A DNA stretch of 9,666 bases, taken from NCBI GenBank assembly GCA_946545105.1, contig CAMNMY010000018.1, positions 1-9,666 of the forward strand, written 5' to 3'. The notes below the pieces were generated by a model that saw nothing but the letters and a program-made list of their open reading frames with translations, was not told the origin of the DNA and searched no databases. This document shows positions 4,295-9,666 of this stretch, one piece after another. Source of the stretch: an uncultured Clostridia bacterium. GTDB lineage: Bacteria > Bacillota_A > Clostridia > Christensenellales > UBA3700. A program made the translations under genes and the position numbers. Numbering within the stretch: the stretch's first letter is position 1; every line of letters starts with the position of its first letter.

Positions 4295-4834
4295 ATGCAA
4301 AAGAGTGACGCTAGAGCAATTGTAAGAGAGAGATTGAATGAGCTCCAAAATAAGAAGGAATTAAGTGATAAGATTTGTAAACAAATCTTAGATTTAAACT
4401 TGCAATGCAAAAATATTTTGCTTTACAAGGCATTGGATAGCGAAGTTAATGTTGATCCACTAATTGATGCTTATCTTGGAAAGATGAATGTTTATTTGCC
4501 AAAAATCGTTGGCAGAGACATTGTGCTTATTAAAGTAGATAAGGATACTAAATATGAGACAGGTATGTTTGGTATTAGTGAACCAATTGGAGAAGAACTA
4601 GATGCTAAAGATGTTCCAATTGACATTTGCATAGCTCCACTTTTAGGCTTTGATGTTTATTTAAATAGATTAGGCAAAGGAAAAGGATATTTTGATAGAT
4701 ATTTTGATAAAGCAAATCCAAAGAAGATTGGTGTTGCTTTTGAAGTACAAAAAGTAAGCAAAGTAGACTTTTTACCATACGACCATAAATTAGATATGGT
4801 AGTAACTGAGGTCGGAATCTATGAGAATAATTAG
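4295..4834 (+). CDS. fau: 5-formyltetrahydrofolate cyclo-ligase
   Basis: This is the cytosolic enzyme (E. coli Fau/YgfA, Bacillus YqgN, MTHFS family) that converts 5-formyl-THF to 5,10-methenyl-THF with ATP, recycling an inhibitory folate store. Its 179 residues are normal for the family. Recognisable blocks: the N-terminal helix with R-E-R-L, GISEP at 93-97, APLLGFD at 114-120 (the family's P-x-x-(A/G)-F-D block), the glycine-rich phosphate-binding loop GKGKGYFDRYF at 127-137 (usually GxGxGYYDR), and LPYDHKLDMVVTE at 160-172. The start is only 2 nt after the hydratase stop and has no good Shine-Dalgarno of its own, so it probably relies on coupling from upstream. Its last 14 nt overlap the start of the rsmD-coaD fusion. 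The bases GAGG at 4808-4811, inside this gene, are the ribosome binding site of that next ORF. Confidence 0.92.
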   Translation: MQKSDARAIVRERLNELQNKKELSDKICKQILDLNLQCKNILLYKALDSEVNVDPLIDAYLGKMNVYLPKIVGRDIVLIKVDKDTKYETGMFGISEPIGEELDAKDVPIDICIAPLLGFDVYLNRLGKGKGYFDRYFDKANPKKIGVAFEVQKVSKVDFLPYDHKLDMVVTEVGIYENN

Positions 4835-5837
4835 TGGCAAATATAGAGGAAGGCCACTTGTATCTTTTGAAGGAAAGGATGTTAGACCAACAATAGATAG
4901 GGTGAAAGAATCTATATTTAATGTCATTCAATTTGGAATCAAAGATTCAAAGTTTGTAGATTTATTTTCTGGAACTGGCTCAATAGGAATAGAAGCTATA
5001 TCTAGAGGCGCTAAAGAGGTCATATTTTCAGATAATGCGCAATCTAGTATAAATATAATAAAACAAAATCTAAAAGGCATAGAAGGCGAATATAAGCTTT
5101 TAAATAGGGATTATAGGGAAACGCTTAATTCACTTGCACACAAAGTTGATTATATTTTTGTAGATGCACCATATGCACTAGATTGTATAAACAATATTAT
5201 AGATATAGTTAAAAATAGAGACTTGCTTTTAGAAGATGGATACATCATCTATGAGCATGATGTAGATAAGAGATATAAACTTCCACAAGAATTCTTTGTA
5301 GAAAAAGTAAAAACTTTTGGAAAGGTTCAAGTGGATTATATAAAGCATACAAATACAATTTGTGCAGTAACAGGAAGCTTTGATCCAATAACTTTAGGGC
5401 ATATTGATATAATTGAAAAAGCTCTAAATGATTATGACAAGGTAGTTGTTGTTATAGCTCAAAATGAAGAAAAGCCAAGTTTCTTCAAATTTGAAGATAG
5501 AAAAAAGATTGTTGATGAAGCAATCAAAGATTTTGATAATGCTATCTGTGAAGTATGTGAAGGGTATGTGTATCCTTTCCTTAATGAAAGGAAAATCAAT
5601 ATAATTGCTAGAGGATATAGAACAGAAAAAGACCTTGCATACGAAAAAGACATGGCTAAATATAACAAAGATCATGGGAATTTAGATACAGTCTTTTATG
5701 AAGCAAAATCAAAAGATTGTGATATAAGTTCAACAAAAGTAAGACAAGCACTTGAAAATAATTTGACAATTAAGGGCCTTGTACCTAAAAATATAGAAAA
5801 GATAATAAAGAAATTATATGAGGTAAATAAATTATGA
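4821..5837 (+). CDS. rsmD-coaD: RsmD-CoaD fusion: 16S rRNA G966-N2 methyltransferase / pantetheine-phosphate adenylyltransferase
   Basis: One uninterrupted 338-residue frame joins two enzymes that are normally separate neighbours. Residues 1-~176 are RsmD: the typical start MRIISGKYRGR, RPTIDRVKESIFN at 22-34, SAM motif I DLFSGTGSIGIEA at 47-59, and catalytic motif IV as DAPY at 115-118 (usually DPPY). RsmD methylates G966 of 16S rRNA (E. coli numbering) during 30S assembly. Residues ~179-338 are CoaD, the penultimate CoA-pathway enzyme, which transfers AMP from ATP to 4'-phosphopantetheine. It has GSFDPITLGH at 185-194, a Lys at 218 (EEKPSFF), ARGYR at 263-267 with both phosphate-binding arginines, and ISSTKVR at 302-308. 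Both domains look complete. The junction (FGKVQVDYIKHTNTICAVTG) has almost no linker. The start has GAGG 9-10 nt upstream and overlaps the cyclo-ligase gene; the TGA stop overlaps the next ATG and is followed in frame by TAG. Confidence 0.93.
   Translation: MRIISGKYRGRPLVSFEGKDVRPTIDRVKESIFNVIQFGIKDSKFVDLFSGTGSIGIEAISRGAKEVIFSDNAQSSINIIKQNLKGIEGEYKLLNRDYRETLNSLAHKVDYIFVDAPYALDCINNIIDIVKNRDLLLEDGYIIYEHDVDKRYKLPQEFFVEKVKTFGKVQVDYIKHTNTICAVTGSFDPITLGHIDIIEKALNDYDKVVVVIAQNEEKPSFFKFEDRKKIVDEAIKDFDNAICEVCEGYVYPFLNERKINIIARGYRTEKDLAYEKDMAKYNKDHGNLDTVFYEAKSKDCDISSTKVRQALENNLTIKGLVPKNIEKIIKKLYEVNKL
5321..5333 (+). promoter_or_regulatory. Possible internal ribosome binding site and GTG start for a CoaD-only product
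   Basis: Inside the fusion, AAAGG (5321-5325) lies 5 nt before an in-frame GTG (5331, Val171), just ahead of the CoaD domain. Initiation there would give a 168-residue protein beginning VDYIKHTNTICAVTGSFDP, about the usual CoaD length. The motif is short and could be chance in this purine-rich genome; no in-frame ATG lies near the junction. Confidence 0.22.
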
Positions 5838-6316: not shown

Positions 6317-6337
6317 TAAATATTAATGTTTATATTG

Positions 6338-6365
6338 GAGTTCGGTTATGCCGAACTCTTTTTTT
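6338..6365 (+). terminator. Intrinsic terminator closing the five-gene unit
   Basis: A perfect 8-bp stem, GAGTTCGG (6338-6345) with CCGAACTC (6351-6358), has a 5-nt loop TTATG and is followed directly by seven T residues (6359-6365). It sits 21 nt after the coiled-coil gene's stop and is the strongest terminator in the window. Confidence 0.95.
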
Positions 6366-6430: not shown

Positions 6431-6691
6431 ATGGCTCAAACAACAGTGAATATTAGAATAGATAAAGATACAAAGATTGCATTTGACAAATTCTGTAAAG
6501 AAATAGGGCTATCGTCTAGTGCTGCTTTTAATTTATTTGCAAAGACGGTTGTTAGGGAACAACGAATCCCATTTGCAATTGAGATCCCAAATGCTAATAC
6601 TAAAAAAGCAATCAATAATGCGAGAATAGGAAAAGGCCTTAGCAAAGAATTTAAGACAGTTGATGAAGTTATAAATAACCTAAATGCATAA
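6431..6691 (+). CDS. RelB/DinJ-family antitoxin, orphan
   Basis: The 86-residue protein has the RelB/DinJ layout. An N-terminal ribbon-helix-helix (about residues 3-45) starts with the beta strand TTVNIRIDKDTK, followed by helices AFDKFCKEIG and SSSAAFNLFAKTVVRE. Next comes the family hallmark IPFAIEIPN (47-55), then a C-terminal tail (KKAINNARIGKGLSKEFKTVDEVINNLNA) of the kind that wraps the partner RelE/YafQ toxin. In known systems the antitoxin neutralises an mRNA-cleaving toxin and represses its own operon. Here no toxin ORF follows: the 216 nt to pyrC are regulatory, and none lies upstream. The start has AAGGAG at 6418-6423, 7 nt from the ATG. It is flanked by terminator and promoter, so it is an independent unit wedged between two housekeeping operons, which suggests insertion or remnant status. 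An alternative is a stand-alone regulator. Confidence 0.88.
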   Translation: MAQTTVNIRIDKDTKIAFDKFCKEIGLSSSAAFNLFAKTVVREQRIPFAIEIPNANTKKAINNARIGKGLSKEFKTVDEVINNLNA

Positions 6692-6770: not shown

Positions 6771-6784
6771 ACTATCAAAGATAA

Positions 6785-6817
6785 ATCTTTAAGTTGATTC
6801 AGAGAAGTCGACAAGAT
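6785..6817 (+). promoter_or_regulatory. PyrR-binding hairpin (anti-antiterminator) of the pyr leader
   Basis: The lower stem AUCUU (6785-6789) pairs with AAGAU (6813-6817). A 3-nt bulge UAA lies on the 5' side only. The upper stem GUUGAUU (6793-6799) pairs with AGUCGAC (6806-6812) and closes a hexaloop CAGAGA (6800-6805). This is the published PyrR target architecture as I recall it: a 5'-side purine-rich bulge, a hexaloop of type CNGNGA, and a conserved U-G wobble two pairs below the loop (here U6798-G6807). When UMP is high, PyrR would stabilise this hairpin, block the antiterminator and let the terminator form. pyrR itself is not in the window. Confidence 0.8.
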
Positions 6818-6852
6818 GCTAAATAATATACGAATTGGTATAAGTCTTGTCG
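6809..6852 (+). promoter_or_regulatory. Antiterminator of the pyr leader
   Basis: CGACAAGA (6809-6816) pairs perfectly with UCUUGUCG (6845-6852), extended by a U-G wobble (6817-6844). An inner 5-bp stem UAUAC (6827-6831) with GUAUA (6838-6842) is closed by a GAAUUG loop. The 5' strand is shared with the PyrR hairpin and the 3' strand with the terminator, so the three structures are mutually exclusive. This is the default fold expected when PyrR is not bound. Confidence 0.8.
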
Positions 6853-6876
6853 CACAGATAAGACTTATTTTTCTTT
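6840..6876 (+). terminator. Regulated intrinsic terminator (attenuator) ahead of pyrC
   Basis: AUAAGUCUUGUC (6840-6851) pairs with GAUAAGACUUAU (6857-6868) over 12 bp with one G-U wobble and a 5-nt loop (6852-6856). UUUUCUUU (6869-6876) follows. It lies about 63 nt after the predicted transcription start and ends 31 nt before the pyrC ATG. Its 5' arm overlaps the antiterminator. Confidence 0.85.
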
Positions 6877-6902
6877 AAATGGTACAGAGAGACCAAAAGG
6901 AG
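6870..6902 (+). promoter_or_regulatory. Second PyrR-like hairpin sequestering the pyrC Shine-Dalgarno
   Basis: The hexaloop CAGAGA recurs at 6885-6890. Below it are an A-G mismatch (6884-6891), then UGGU (6880-6883) paired with ACCA (6892-6895), and a 5'-side purine bulge AAA (6877-6879). The lower stem pairs UUUCUUU (6870-6876) with AAAGGAG (6896-6902), including two G-U pairs. The lower stem covers the pyrC ribosome binding site. The layout matches the first PyrR site, though the loop-closing mismatch makes it a weaker match. It suggests translational repression in addition to attenuation; this is inference. Confidence 0.5.
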
Positions 6903-6907
6903 TAAAA

Positions 6908-8113
6908 ATGTTAGGTTTAAACGTAAAATGCTGTATTCCAGACAAATACAAGAAAACTATCATAGATAGTTTCCTTCAAAATGAATCACTTGAAAAATTT
7001 AATACTAATCAATATACAATTTTACCTGGTTTTTGTGACGTACATGTCCATTTTAGAGAACCAGGTTTTTCATATAAAGAGACAATAAAGACTGGTTCAA
7101 TGGCAGCAGCTCATGGTGGATATACTGCAGTTTGCACAATGCCAAATTTAAATCCAGTTCCACATTCAATTGAAAATCTAAAAATTCAACAAGATATCAT
7201 AGATAGAGATGCTTGCATTGCTATATATCCATATGGAGCTATAACAGTTAATGAAAAAGGCGAAGAACTTGCAGATTTTGATGGCATGAAAGATATGGTA
7301 GTTGCTTTTTCTGACGATGGTAGAGGCTTGCAAAGAGCTGAAATGATGGAGAAGGCAATGAAGAAAGCAAAAGAGCTAGATAAGATTATAGTTGCTCATT
7401 GCGAAGTAAACGAACTTTTAAAGGGTGGATATATTCACGATGGAGAATATGCAAAGGCTCATAACCACAGAGGAATCTGCTCTGCATCAGAATATGAGCA
7501 AATTGCTCGTGATGTAGAAATTGCAAAGAAATATAATGCAAAATATCATGTATGTCATATATCTACAAAAGAAAGTGTAGAGATTATAAGAAAGGCAAAA
7601 GCTGAAGGCGTAAACGTTACTTGCGAGACAGCACCTCATTATTTAGTTTTAGATGATTCAATGTTAAAAGAAGATGGAATTTGGAAAATGAATCCACCTT
7701 TAAGATCTTCTCAAGATAGACAAGCTTTAATTGAAGGAATTTTAGATGGCACAATCGATATGATAGCAACAGATCATGCGCCACATTCTCAAGAAGAAAA
7801 ATCAAAAGGCTTAGAGAAGAGTCCATTTGGAATAGTTGGTATTGAGAATGCATTCCAAGTTCTATATACAAATTTAGTAAAAAAAGGAATCATATCTTTA
7901 GAAAAATTAATCCAACTTTTAGTTGTTAACCCAAGAGAGAGATTCAATATTCCAATGAATGCAGATTACAGTATTTGGGATTTAGATAAGGAAACAGTAA
8001 TTGATTCTAAAACATTCTTATCAATGGGGAAAGCAACACCATTTGATGGAGAAAAAGTATTAGGAGAAATTGAAGCTACGGTATATCAAGGAAATATCGT
8101 ATATAAAAAATAG
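6908..8113 (+). CDS. pyrC: Dihydroorotase, class I
   Basis: PyrC closes N-carbamoyl-L-aspartate to L-dihydroorotate, the third step of de novo pyrimidine synthesis, in the cytosol. The metal-dependent amidohydrolase motifs are all present: PGFCDVHVHFREPG at 40-53 with zinc ligands His46 and His48, FSDDG at 134-138 with the bridging Asp (the residue that replaces carbamylated Lys in this subgroup), AHCE with His164, HVCHIST at 214-220 with His217, NPPLRS at 262-267, and ATDHAPHS at 287-294 with catalytic Asp289. Its 401 residues are somewhat short of the usual ~425; the missing part is the N-terminal beta strand region before PGF. The start is set by AAAAGGAG (6895-6902), 5 nt upstream. It is the first gene of a leader-regulated operon, and carB follows after 33 nt. 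Confidence 0.95.
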   Translation: MLGLNVKCCIPDKYKKTIIDSFLQNESLEKFNTNQYTILPGFCDVHVHFREPGFSYKETIKTGSMAAAHGGYTAVCTMPNLNPVPHSIENLKIQQDIIDRDACIAIYPYGAITVNEKGEELADFDGMKDMVVAFSDDGRGLQRAEMMEKAMKKAKELDKIIVAHCEVNELLKGGYIHDGEYAKAHNHRGICSASEYEQIARDVEIAKKYNAKYHVCHISTKESVEIIRKAKAEGVNVTCETAPHYLVLDDSMLKEDGIWKMNPPLRSSQDRQALIEGILDGTIDMIATDHAPHSQEEKSKGLEKSPFGIVGIENAFQVLYTNLVKKGIISLEKLIQLLVVNPRERFNIPMNADYSIWDLDKETVIDSKTFLSMGKATPFDGEKVLGEIEATVYQGNIVYKK

Positions 8114-8146: not shown

Positions 8147-9666
8147 ATGGCAAAGAGAAAGGACATCAAAAAGATTTTAATCATTGGTTCAGGTCCAATC
8201 GTAATTGGACAAGCTGCAGAATTTGACTATGCTGGAACACAAGCATGTCTTGCTTTAAAAGAAGAAGGATATGAAGTAGTTTTAGTAAACTCAAACCCAG
8301 CTACAATCATGACAGACACAACAATCGCTGATAAGGTTTACATGGAACCTCTAACACTTGAGTACATTGCAAAGATTCTACGTTATGAAAGACCAGATGC
8401 AATCGTTCCAGGTATCGGTGGACAAACAGGTTTGAACCTAGCTATGCAACTTGAAAAGAAGGGCGTTTTAAAAGAATGTAATGTTGAACTTCTAGGAACT
8501 CCATCTACAAGTATTGAAAGAGCAGAAGATAGAGAATTGTTCAAGGAAATGTGTCAATCAATCGGAGAACCAGTTATCCCTTCAGAAATTACATATTCAG
8601 TAGAAGAAGCTATCAAGGCAGCTGATGATATTGGATACCCAGTAGTTTTAAGACCAGCTTTCACACTAGGTGGAACAGGTGGTGGTTTTGCCAACAATAA
8701 AGAAGAATTAATTGAAGTTGCTACAAACGGATTCCAATTATCTCCAGTTCATCAAGTATTAGTTGAAAAGAGCGTTAAAGGATATAAGGAAATCGAGTTC
8801 GAAGTTATGAGAGACTCTAATGACCACGCAATTACAATTTGCGGTATGGAAAACGTTGACCCAGTTGGTGTACATACAGGTGACTCAATCGTTGTAGCTC
8901 CAATTATGTCTCTAAATGATCATGACTTAAAGATGTTAAACGATAGTGCTATTAAGATTATTAAGGAATTAAAGATTGAAGGTGGATGTAACGTACAATT
9001 CGCTTTAAATCCAAATTCTTCTGAATACTACCTAATCGAAGTTAACCCAAGAGTTTCAAGATCTTCAGCTTTAGCTTCAAAGGCATCAGGATATCCAATC
9101 GCTAGAGTAACAGCTAAGATTGCTGTAGGTATGGCTCTTGAAGATATTCATGTTGGTGGTACAACAGCAGATAAAGAACCAAGCTTAGATTATGTAGTTG
9201 CTAAGTTCCCAAGATTCCCATTTGATAAGTTCTCAACAGCTTCAAATAAATTAGGAACACAAATGAAGGCAACAGGTGAAGTTATGTCAATCGGTTCAAA
9301 TCTAGAAGAGTGCTTCCTAAAGGCTACAAGATCACTAGAAGTTGGCGTAACACACATCTATGTTCCAAAGTTCGATAATATGTCTAAAGAAGAATTGATG
9401 AATTACGTTTCAGAATTCAGAGCAGATAACATCTTTGCTATTGCTGAATTAGTAGCTCGTGGAGCAACAATTGAAGAGATGGCAAAAGTTACAATGATTA
9501 CTCCTCTATTCTTAGAAGCAATAAAGAGAATTGTAGATAAAGAAACTGAGTTAAAAGCTCATAAACTAGATGCAGCTGTTCTAAAGTCTGCAAAGGTAAT
9601 AGGCTTCTCAGATAAGTTTATTGCTAAGTTATGGGATATGAAAGAAATTGAAGTTATAAATTTAAA
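8147..9666 (+). CDS. carB: Carbamoyl-phosphate synthase large subunit, 3'-truncated by the window
   Basis: CarB makes carbamoyl phosphate from ammonia (delivered by the glutaminase CarA), bicarbonate and two ATP. The window holds the first 506 codons of a protein usually near 1,070 residues: the N-terminal carboxyphosphate ATP-grasp half and most of the oligomerisation domain. Visible: [18 protein letters not shown] at 13-30, [10 protein letters not shown] at 88-97, Arg129, Arg169 ([14 protein letters not shown]), VHTGDS with His243, Gln284, and [17 protein letters not shown] at 297-313 with Glu298 and Asn300, close to the E. coli numbering. The start is clear: AGGAGG at 8131-8136, 10 nt before the ATG. 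No carA lies between pyrC and carB; it must be downstream or elsewhere. Being second in the operon, it should share the PyrR-type leader control; its own strong ribosome binding site would let it escape any pyrC-specific translational block. Confidence 0.97.

Follow-up and report, generated by a model that had tools for sequence, protein, structure and literature searches.

The pyrC locus and its leader

As summarized in Table 1, the window (the whole stretch of 9,666 nucleotides of DNA analysed here) carries the dihydroorotase gene pyrC followed by carB, and the sequence between the end of a relB-like gene (position 6691) and the pyrC start at 6908 constitutes the pyrC leader, in which two PyrR-type hairpins were located. 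Directly 5' of this leader lies the RelB-family antitoxin gene itself (6431-6691), and no match to a toxin family of Pfam was obtained among the other window frames submitted. A strong terminator (6337-6359; 10 pairs and a T-run) stands after a gene of 160 aa and before relB and pyrC, and the Rfam family cyano_het_sRNA matched weakly over it, under its cut-off. At positions 4821-5837, an RsmD-type 16S rRNA methyltransferase and a CoaD-type adenylyltransferase share one reading frame as a fusion, for which full-length matches of about 30-38% identity were found in other genomes of the class, mostly with an internal stop codon; the fusion was dropped as a marker of kinship, the best full-length matches reaching only 37-38%.

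Table 1. Features of the pyrC leader and the adjoining genes in the window
Feature	Positions	Strand	Basis
First PyrR-binding hairpin (anti-antiterminator), hexaloop CAGAGA at 6800-6805	6784-6819	+	Model R1, RF00515
Antiterminator 5' arm CGACAAGAU, doubling as the 3' arm of hairpin 1	6809-6817	+	Pairing with 6844-6852
Intrinsic terminator stem-loop, 12 pairs, then U-tract 6868-6876	6840-6868	+	Terminator scan
Second PyrR-type hairpin, hexaloop CAGAGA at 6885-6890	6870-6902	+	Fold, R1, conservation, shuffle test
Arms of the second hairpin	5' arm 6870-6876; upper stem 6880-6884/6891-6895; 3' lower arm 6896-6902	+	
pyrC Shine-Dalgarno AAAGGAG, paired within the second hairpin	6896-6902	+	Sequence; invariant in four species
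pyrC, dihydroorotase, 401 aa	6908-8113	+	Pfam PF12890, PF01979
carB, carbamoyl-phosphate synthase large subunit, extending past the window end	8147-9664	+	Pfam PF02786, PF25596, PF02787

The 5' part of the leader has the layout of the Rfam PyrR family (RF00515), that is, a CNGNGA hairpin overlapping an antiterminator arm and then an intrinsic terminator. The first hairpin was recognized with 42.1 bits (E 7.6e-7) by R1, a covariance model built from 17 canonical sites of loci outside the clade of the window and hence trained without it (alignment A4, with equal spacing); the alignments A1 (33 rows) and A2 (25 rows) were unused for R1 because MAFFT misaligned the CUUUAA in rows with longer bulges, and 8 of the 25 A2 rows were left out of A4. 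RF00515 itself matched positions 6782-6875 with 51 bits (E 6.9e-5), which is 3 bits under its gathering score of 54, and gave 49.0-51.6 bits on the leaders of the relatives described below. RNA folding assigned -11.9 kcal/mol to the possible antiterminator pairing and -13.9 kcal/mol to the terminator, and from the sequence the antiterminator excludes both hairpin 1 and the terminator. The R1 match and these pairings agree with the first-pass annotation, which had placed an attenuator upstream of the second hairpin.

The second hairpin is present where that annotation had drawn it, and reads, from 5' to 3', UUUCUUU (6870-6876), AAA, UGGU (6880-6883), A6884, the CAGAGA loop, G6891, ACCA (6892-6895) and AAAGGAG, with UAAAA as the five bases between the Shine-Dalgarno and the AUG of pyrC. 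UGGU pairs with ACCA, an A-G juxtaposition closes the loop, and CUUUAA stands at the 5' side. Both overlaps ascribed to the structure were confirmed in the letters, as UUUCUUU in the lower stem pairs with the Shine-Dalgarno and the terminator U-tract doubles as the 5' arm. RNA folding reproduced the drawn hairpin with -5.8 kcal/mol, an unremarkable energy (z -0.83; 40 of 200 shuffles equally good) that was discarded as evidence; because it is no better than that of many shuffles, the case for the hairpin is carried by the motif and not by the energy. On the plus strand of the entire window, hairpins with a C.G.GA hexaloop and at least four pairs number only two, both in the pyrC leader, in agreement with the repeated CAGAGA loop noted at first. 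When positions 6869-6907 (39 nt) were shuffled 200,000 times, a hexaloop hairpin of this kind immediately preceded by CUUUAA turned up 4 times (a rate of 2e-5), and 50,000 shuffles of the 131-nt leader produced it once. The pyrC leader has the feature of a translational operator, a PyrR hairpin overlapping the Shine-Dalgarno, as judged from sequence, conservation and a weak model match.

Motif specificity and conservation in close relatives

Defined as CUUUAA and, 3' of it, a stem with four or more pairs around CNGNGA, the motif was present at 30 places when both strands of 115 related loci (1,555,984 nt) were searched; 29 of these read as canonical PyrR sites and the remaining one (L027) as degenerate. 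The closing A-G mismatch, which the first-pass annotation took for the weak point of the second hairpin, recurred in 8 of these 30 sites and was dropped as a ground for disqualifying the second site. R1 yielded 15 matches at E<=10 in 71,491 bases that comprised the window, three relatives and another 13 pyrC loci. Eleven were canonical sites with 40.7-47.8 bits, four of them the first sites of the clade, and the other four, with 13.6-18.1 bits, were exactly the four second hairpins of the clade. Taken singly, the second hairpins are weak in R1 and far under site 1 (E 0.2-2.2; the one in the window, 17.3 bits and E 0.33), and in whole genomes only that of G971 among three reached E<=5. Stray matches with no known pyr context scored 18.5 and 18.0 bits in whole genomes, and five more scored 13.7-15.5 bits in 110 other loci. 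The Rfam PyrR model does not report the second site in the window, the three relatives or 20 pyrB loci, and annotation by this model alone overlooks it.

The three relatives, G785 (locus L117), G971 (L131) and G972 (L132), whose PyrC proteins are 78-82% identical to that of the window, were reached by going through genomes by order and family, and a close PyrC was found in only these 3 of the 46 genomes of the family examined. The rest of the family comprised 3 genomes with a distant PyrC (46-47%) and 40 with none at E<=1e-100, which suggests that pyrimidine synthesis is patchy across the family of G785.

All four clade leaders possess both hairpins, with site 2 at the same place; a relative keeping hairpin 1 and losing hairpin 2, the case that would have spoken against the first-pass annotation, was absent. 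Hairpin 1 is identical in the four save for one lower-stem base, and hairpin 2 reads UGGUA-CAGAGA-GACCA in the window, AGGUA-CAGAGA-GACCU in L132, AGGUC-CAGAGA-GGCCA in L117 and UGGUA-CUGUGA-UGCCA in L131. The outer pair of hairpin 2 is accordingly U-A in the window and L131, A-U in L132 and broken in L117, and its closing position is A-G in the window and L132, C-G in L117 and A-U in L131. The C, G, G and A of CNGNGA and the two G-C pairs are invariant. The changes are confined to the N positions of the loop (CAGAGA to CUGUGA), the bulge and paired positions. In the alignment for covariation proposed at first, pair-keeping changes are seen in the upper stem, but the four-row pair counts were not above those of shuffles (188 of 500 as high), although no slid register matched them, and the U-tract and the lower stem, being invariant in the four species, yield no evidence of covariation.

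A PyrR protein is encoded in G785 (246 bits against a cut-off of 138), with PyrR proteins as its best PDB matches, and none over the cut-off was found in G971 and G972 (both 1.3 Mb). The pyrR gene of G785 is itself preceded by a PyrR-like site (R1, 22.2 bits) in a leader with a terminator-like stem, seen by eye, and no second hairpin; it is followed by a permease-like frame read as uraA. The operon of G785 is ordered pyrC-carB-pyrK-pyrD-pyrF-pyrE-pyrB, the match of pyrK to its family being under the curated cut-offs.

Shine-Dalgarno hairpins at other pyrimidine genes

Among 84,980 genomes, each representing one species, at least 80 pyrC loci were found, the top identity among the matches listed being 70%. 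In distant pyrC loci (60-70% protein identity), R1 found single canonical sites in 24 of 80 (33 bits or more; 13 belonging to the training rows), 17 of 30 (at least 30 bits; 4 training rows) and 7 of 13, and some of these sites precede another gene of the locus. No second site on the Shine-Dalgarno was found with R1 in any of the 80, 30 and 13 loci, and hairpin scans agreed; the lowest R1 score listed for the 80 loci was 15.4 bits, so that a second site with scores as low as in L117 and L132 might escape the model there, though not the scan. Stem-loops near the start without CUUUAA in L041 and L101 (loop UAGGGA) and stem-loops of 3 pairs in L047 and L073 were not counted. A search for viral contigs with PyrC found none.

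A survey with the Rfam model covered 398 genomes of the phylum, from which 130 RF00515 leaders were read (30 loci and 100 other listed matches). More than one hexaloop hairpin was present in 13 of them, and three (L193, L253 and L266) carry tandem PyrR attenuators, each site with its own terminator-like stem; within this set they precede one uraA-like and two pyrB-like genes, the names being given by eye. In L193, the 3' arm of the second terminator bears a Shine-Dalgarno-like AAGGAGG. None of the 130 leaders read has a CUUUAA-CNGNGA site on the Shine-Dalgarno. In L177, a UUGAGA loop occurs immediately after the terminator, over the Shine-Dalgarno of a pyrB-like gene; closed by G-U pairs only and without CUUUAA, it was not counted as a second site, and is possibly a decayed one or a chance occurrence.

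The survey with the Rfam model pointed to a design unique to the clade, and this was overturned by a search for the pattern CTTTWA..CNGNGA..AAGGAG in 391 genomes of the class (112 with a match), taken as Clostridia from the named records encountered, and in 147 genomes of the order. In the order, 16 of the 147 genomes matched, and a PyrR-like stem was found only in G785 among the 17 matches listed, six of the others being assessed by reading their sequence. For the class, 88 loci were read and gave 86 distinct matches, 63 of which have a stem of at least four pairs. Behind 43 of these a gene follows, with its start codon 3-13 nt downstream and a frame that stays open for 80 aa or more; the remaining 20 lack such a start, and several of them resemble ordinary attenuators. 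The hairpins overlap the Shine-Dalgarno of pyrB, uraA or pyrC in 42 of the 43 cases (41 pyrB or uracil permease, and the pyrC of G785), the remaining one preceding an unrelated DUF4130 gene. The genes were identified by Pfam in 10 cases (6 carbamoyltransferase, 3 permease, 1 unrelated), as the known pyrC in one and from N-terminal letters in 32. The genomes of the class were drawn by the tool, 49 extra regions were chosen by eye for a plausible stem, and a reversed-pattern control also gave matches; because of these sampling, listing, control and by-eye limits, the survey counts are lower bounds and not frequencies. Since the pattern required AAGGAG, the survey is blind to the frequency of sites without Shine-Dalgarno overlap. 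A pyrB-like locus with an interrupted stem (L314) was excluded by the stem rule, and identical stretches were counted once.

By script, at least 20 pyrB leaders from 20 genomes, their genes named mostly by N-terminal letters, were revealed to have a PyrR hairpin, a terminator and then a Shine-Dalgarno hairpin. In all of the 20 but L335, where Rfam has no PyrR match, the Rfam PyrR attenuator lies no more than roughly 105 nt upstream; 9 of these 19 matches exceed the gathering score. In L306, whose nearest named protein is from Clostridium tetanomorphum (85%), CUUUAAAUUUAGUACAGAGAUACUAAAAAGGAGGAGAUAGUAUG begins four bases after the terminator U-run, and the hairpin with the Shine-Dalgarno in its lower stem folds with -7.7 kcal/mol (5 of 200 shuffles equally good); the corresponding folds of L302 and L340 stand out less (17 and 22 of 200). 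L302 encodes a PyrB that matches one named Clostridium saccharobutylicum at 100% identity. At further pyrB and uraA genes, the Shine-Dalgarno site stands alone. In particular, at the uraA-type permease genes of L305, L309, L310, L326, L327, L328 and L334, the PyrR hairpin lies on the Shine-Dalgarno and no upstream terminator was found, which looks like translation-only control by PyrR; the DNA upstream reads as the end of pyrR in L305, L309 and L310.

Furthermore, the upper stem covaries in an alignment of these sites, A6, which drew on 34 of 39 distinct sites (L310, L351, L361, L362 and L363 were left out). Over its 33 distinct rows the covariation was strong in score and in paired cells: the score was 0.434 against 0.236 in shuffles, none of 500 being as high, and the best slid register reached 0.133. 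Two of five measures were unremarkable, being equalled or exceeded in 50 and 184 of 500 shuffles, and 17 of the 33 rows leave the outermost pair open.

Proposed operation of the leader and known systems

All these features suggest that the pyrC leader is very probably a two-checkpoint PyrR leader, in which PyrR-UMP promotes termination and then represses translation of the read-through mRNA. At high UMP, PyrR-UMP would bind hairpin 1 as it emerges and hold the antiterminator 5' arm, whereupon the terminator would form and most transcripts would end in the U-tract. Read-through transcripts would expose a second PyrR site made of the U-tract and the pyrC Shine-Dalgarno, and clamping of this hairpin by PyrR-UMP would block initiation of pyrC translation. 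At low UMP, PyrR would be off, the antiterminator would form, and the weak second hairpin would open to ribosomes. The geometry would enforce the order of the checkpoints, since termination cuts a transcript short within the 5' arm of site 2. The binding of PyrR to site 2, its dependence on UMP, the repression and any effects on the genes downstream of pyrC are inferred. The two-checkpoint design put forward in the first-pass annotation is supported, at the level of sequence, by conservation and recurrence, but it is no one-off, recurring as it does at pyrB.

Our confidence goes no further mainly because the Shine-Dalgarno is predicted to be partly paired without protein (mean pairing probability 0.68-0.75 when the whole leader is folded and 0.47-0.79 when the stretch after the terminator is folded), and some occlusion may therefore be constitutive. 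Such an occlusion, or the mere pairing of U-tract and AAAGGAG, would lower pyrC translation without PyrR, as both the predicted pairing in the whole leader and the invariant lower stem would allow; it leaves unexplained, however, the kept CUUUAA and CNGNGA loop, the loop-specific CUGUGA substitution and the 42 of 43 hairpins that precede pyrimidine genes, and we regard it as improbable. We consider it quite improbable that site 2 is a PyrR site with a mainly non-translational role, e.g., in local PyrR concentration or mRNA stability. The tandem PyrR sites of L193, L253 and L266, which lack a free-standing Shine-Dalgarno site, are in line with such a role, but the layout implies that site 2 could not aid site 1 before the termination decision, since terminated transcripts end within its 5' arm, and the AAGGAG overlap at pyrC, pyrB and uraA, including L305, L309 and L310 where no terminator was found, also argues against it. 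A chance resemblance, in which an AT-rich U-tract beside a Shine-Dalgarno happens to enclose CAGAGA, would accord with the single-site R1 E-values and the unremarkable z-score, but is highly improbable in view of the conservation in four species with consensus-respecting changes, the rarity of the motif in shuffles and the occurrence of the same design elsewhere.

Beyond the clade, we think it likely that two-checkpoint PyrR leaders are recurrent in Clostridia with at least two origins, one at pyrB in Clostridium and relatives and one at pyrC in the clade of the window, and that the Shine-Dalgarno-only operators of pyrB and uraA represent translational control by PyrR well outside mycobacteria. 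An independent origin at pyrC and pyrB is suggested because the design is absent from the other pyrC leaders and from the sampled order. One small protein seems, from the sequence, to act at two successive steps on one mRNA, and the leader is compact, with the terminator U-tract serving a second time as the arm that would mask the ribosome-binding site. Its recurrence at pyrB in culturable Clostridia makes the design directly testable, and leaders with the attenuator only, the operator only or both provide a natural comparison set for asking whether the second check brings tighter shut-off, noise control or faster response. Open-licence full text yielded no account of a PyrR leader that combines the two controls via two sites, and the chief papers on PyrR (Fields and Switzer 2007, the 2008 review, Bonner 2001) may mention one.

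Transcription attenuation by PyrR is known (passages of PMC7430163 and PMC4347634), and in the same part of PMC7430163 the PyrR site has the consensus ARUCCAGAGAGGYU, in which the loop, the top of the upper stem and the purine-rich bulge are crucial, and the three PyrR attenuation regions of B. subtilis are of one kind. The present leader resembles the Bacillus-type attenuator in its CNGNGA anti-antiterminator, antiterminator and terminator 5' of pyr genes and in the PyrR gene of a clade genome, but unlike the PyrR leaders of B. subtilis it has a second loop, without its own terminator, on the Shine-Dalgarno. With the tandem PyrR attenuators it shares two PyrR sites per leader; in those, however, each site has its own terminator-like stem, whereas site 2 here would be a free-standing Shine-Dalgarno block. 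Fields and Switzer, in 2007, reportedly described PyrR-dependent translational repression in Mycobacterium smegmatis, and the operator of this type is reported to be translational only and to act without a terminator. By analogy, the PyrR-type site at the ribosome-binding site here would be a translational block, but, unlike in M. smegmatis, an attenuator precedes the operator, and this in Clostridia, which makes the leader a combined type. In the B. subtilis trp operon, the single RNA-binding protein TRAP governs termination as well as ribosome access (PMC4347634). One protein would likewise serve termination and ribosome access here. In the trp leader, one TRAP site triggers both outcomes, whereas the pyrC leader has two separate PyrR sites, and its protein and RNA site are unrelated to those of the TRAP system.
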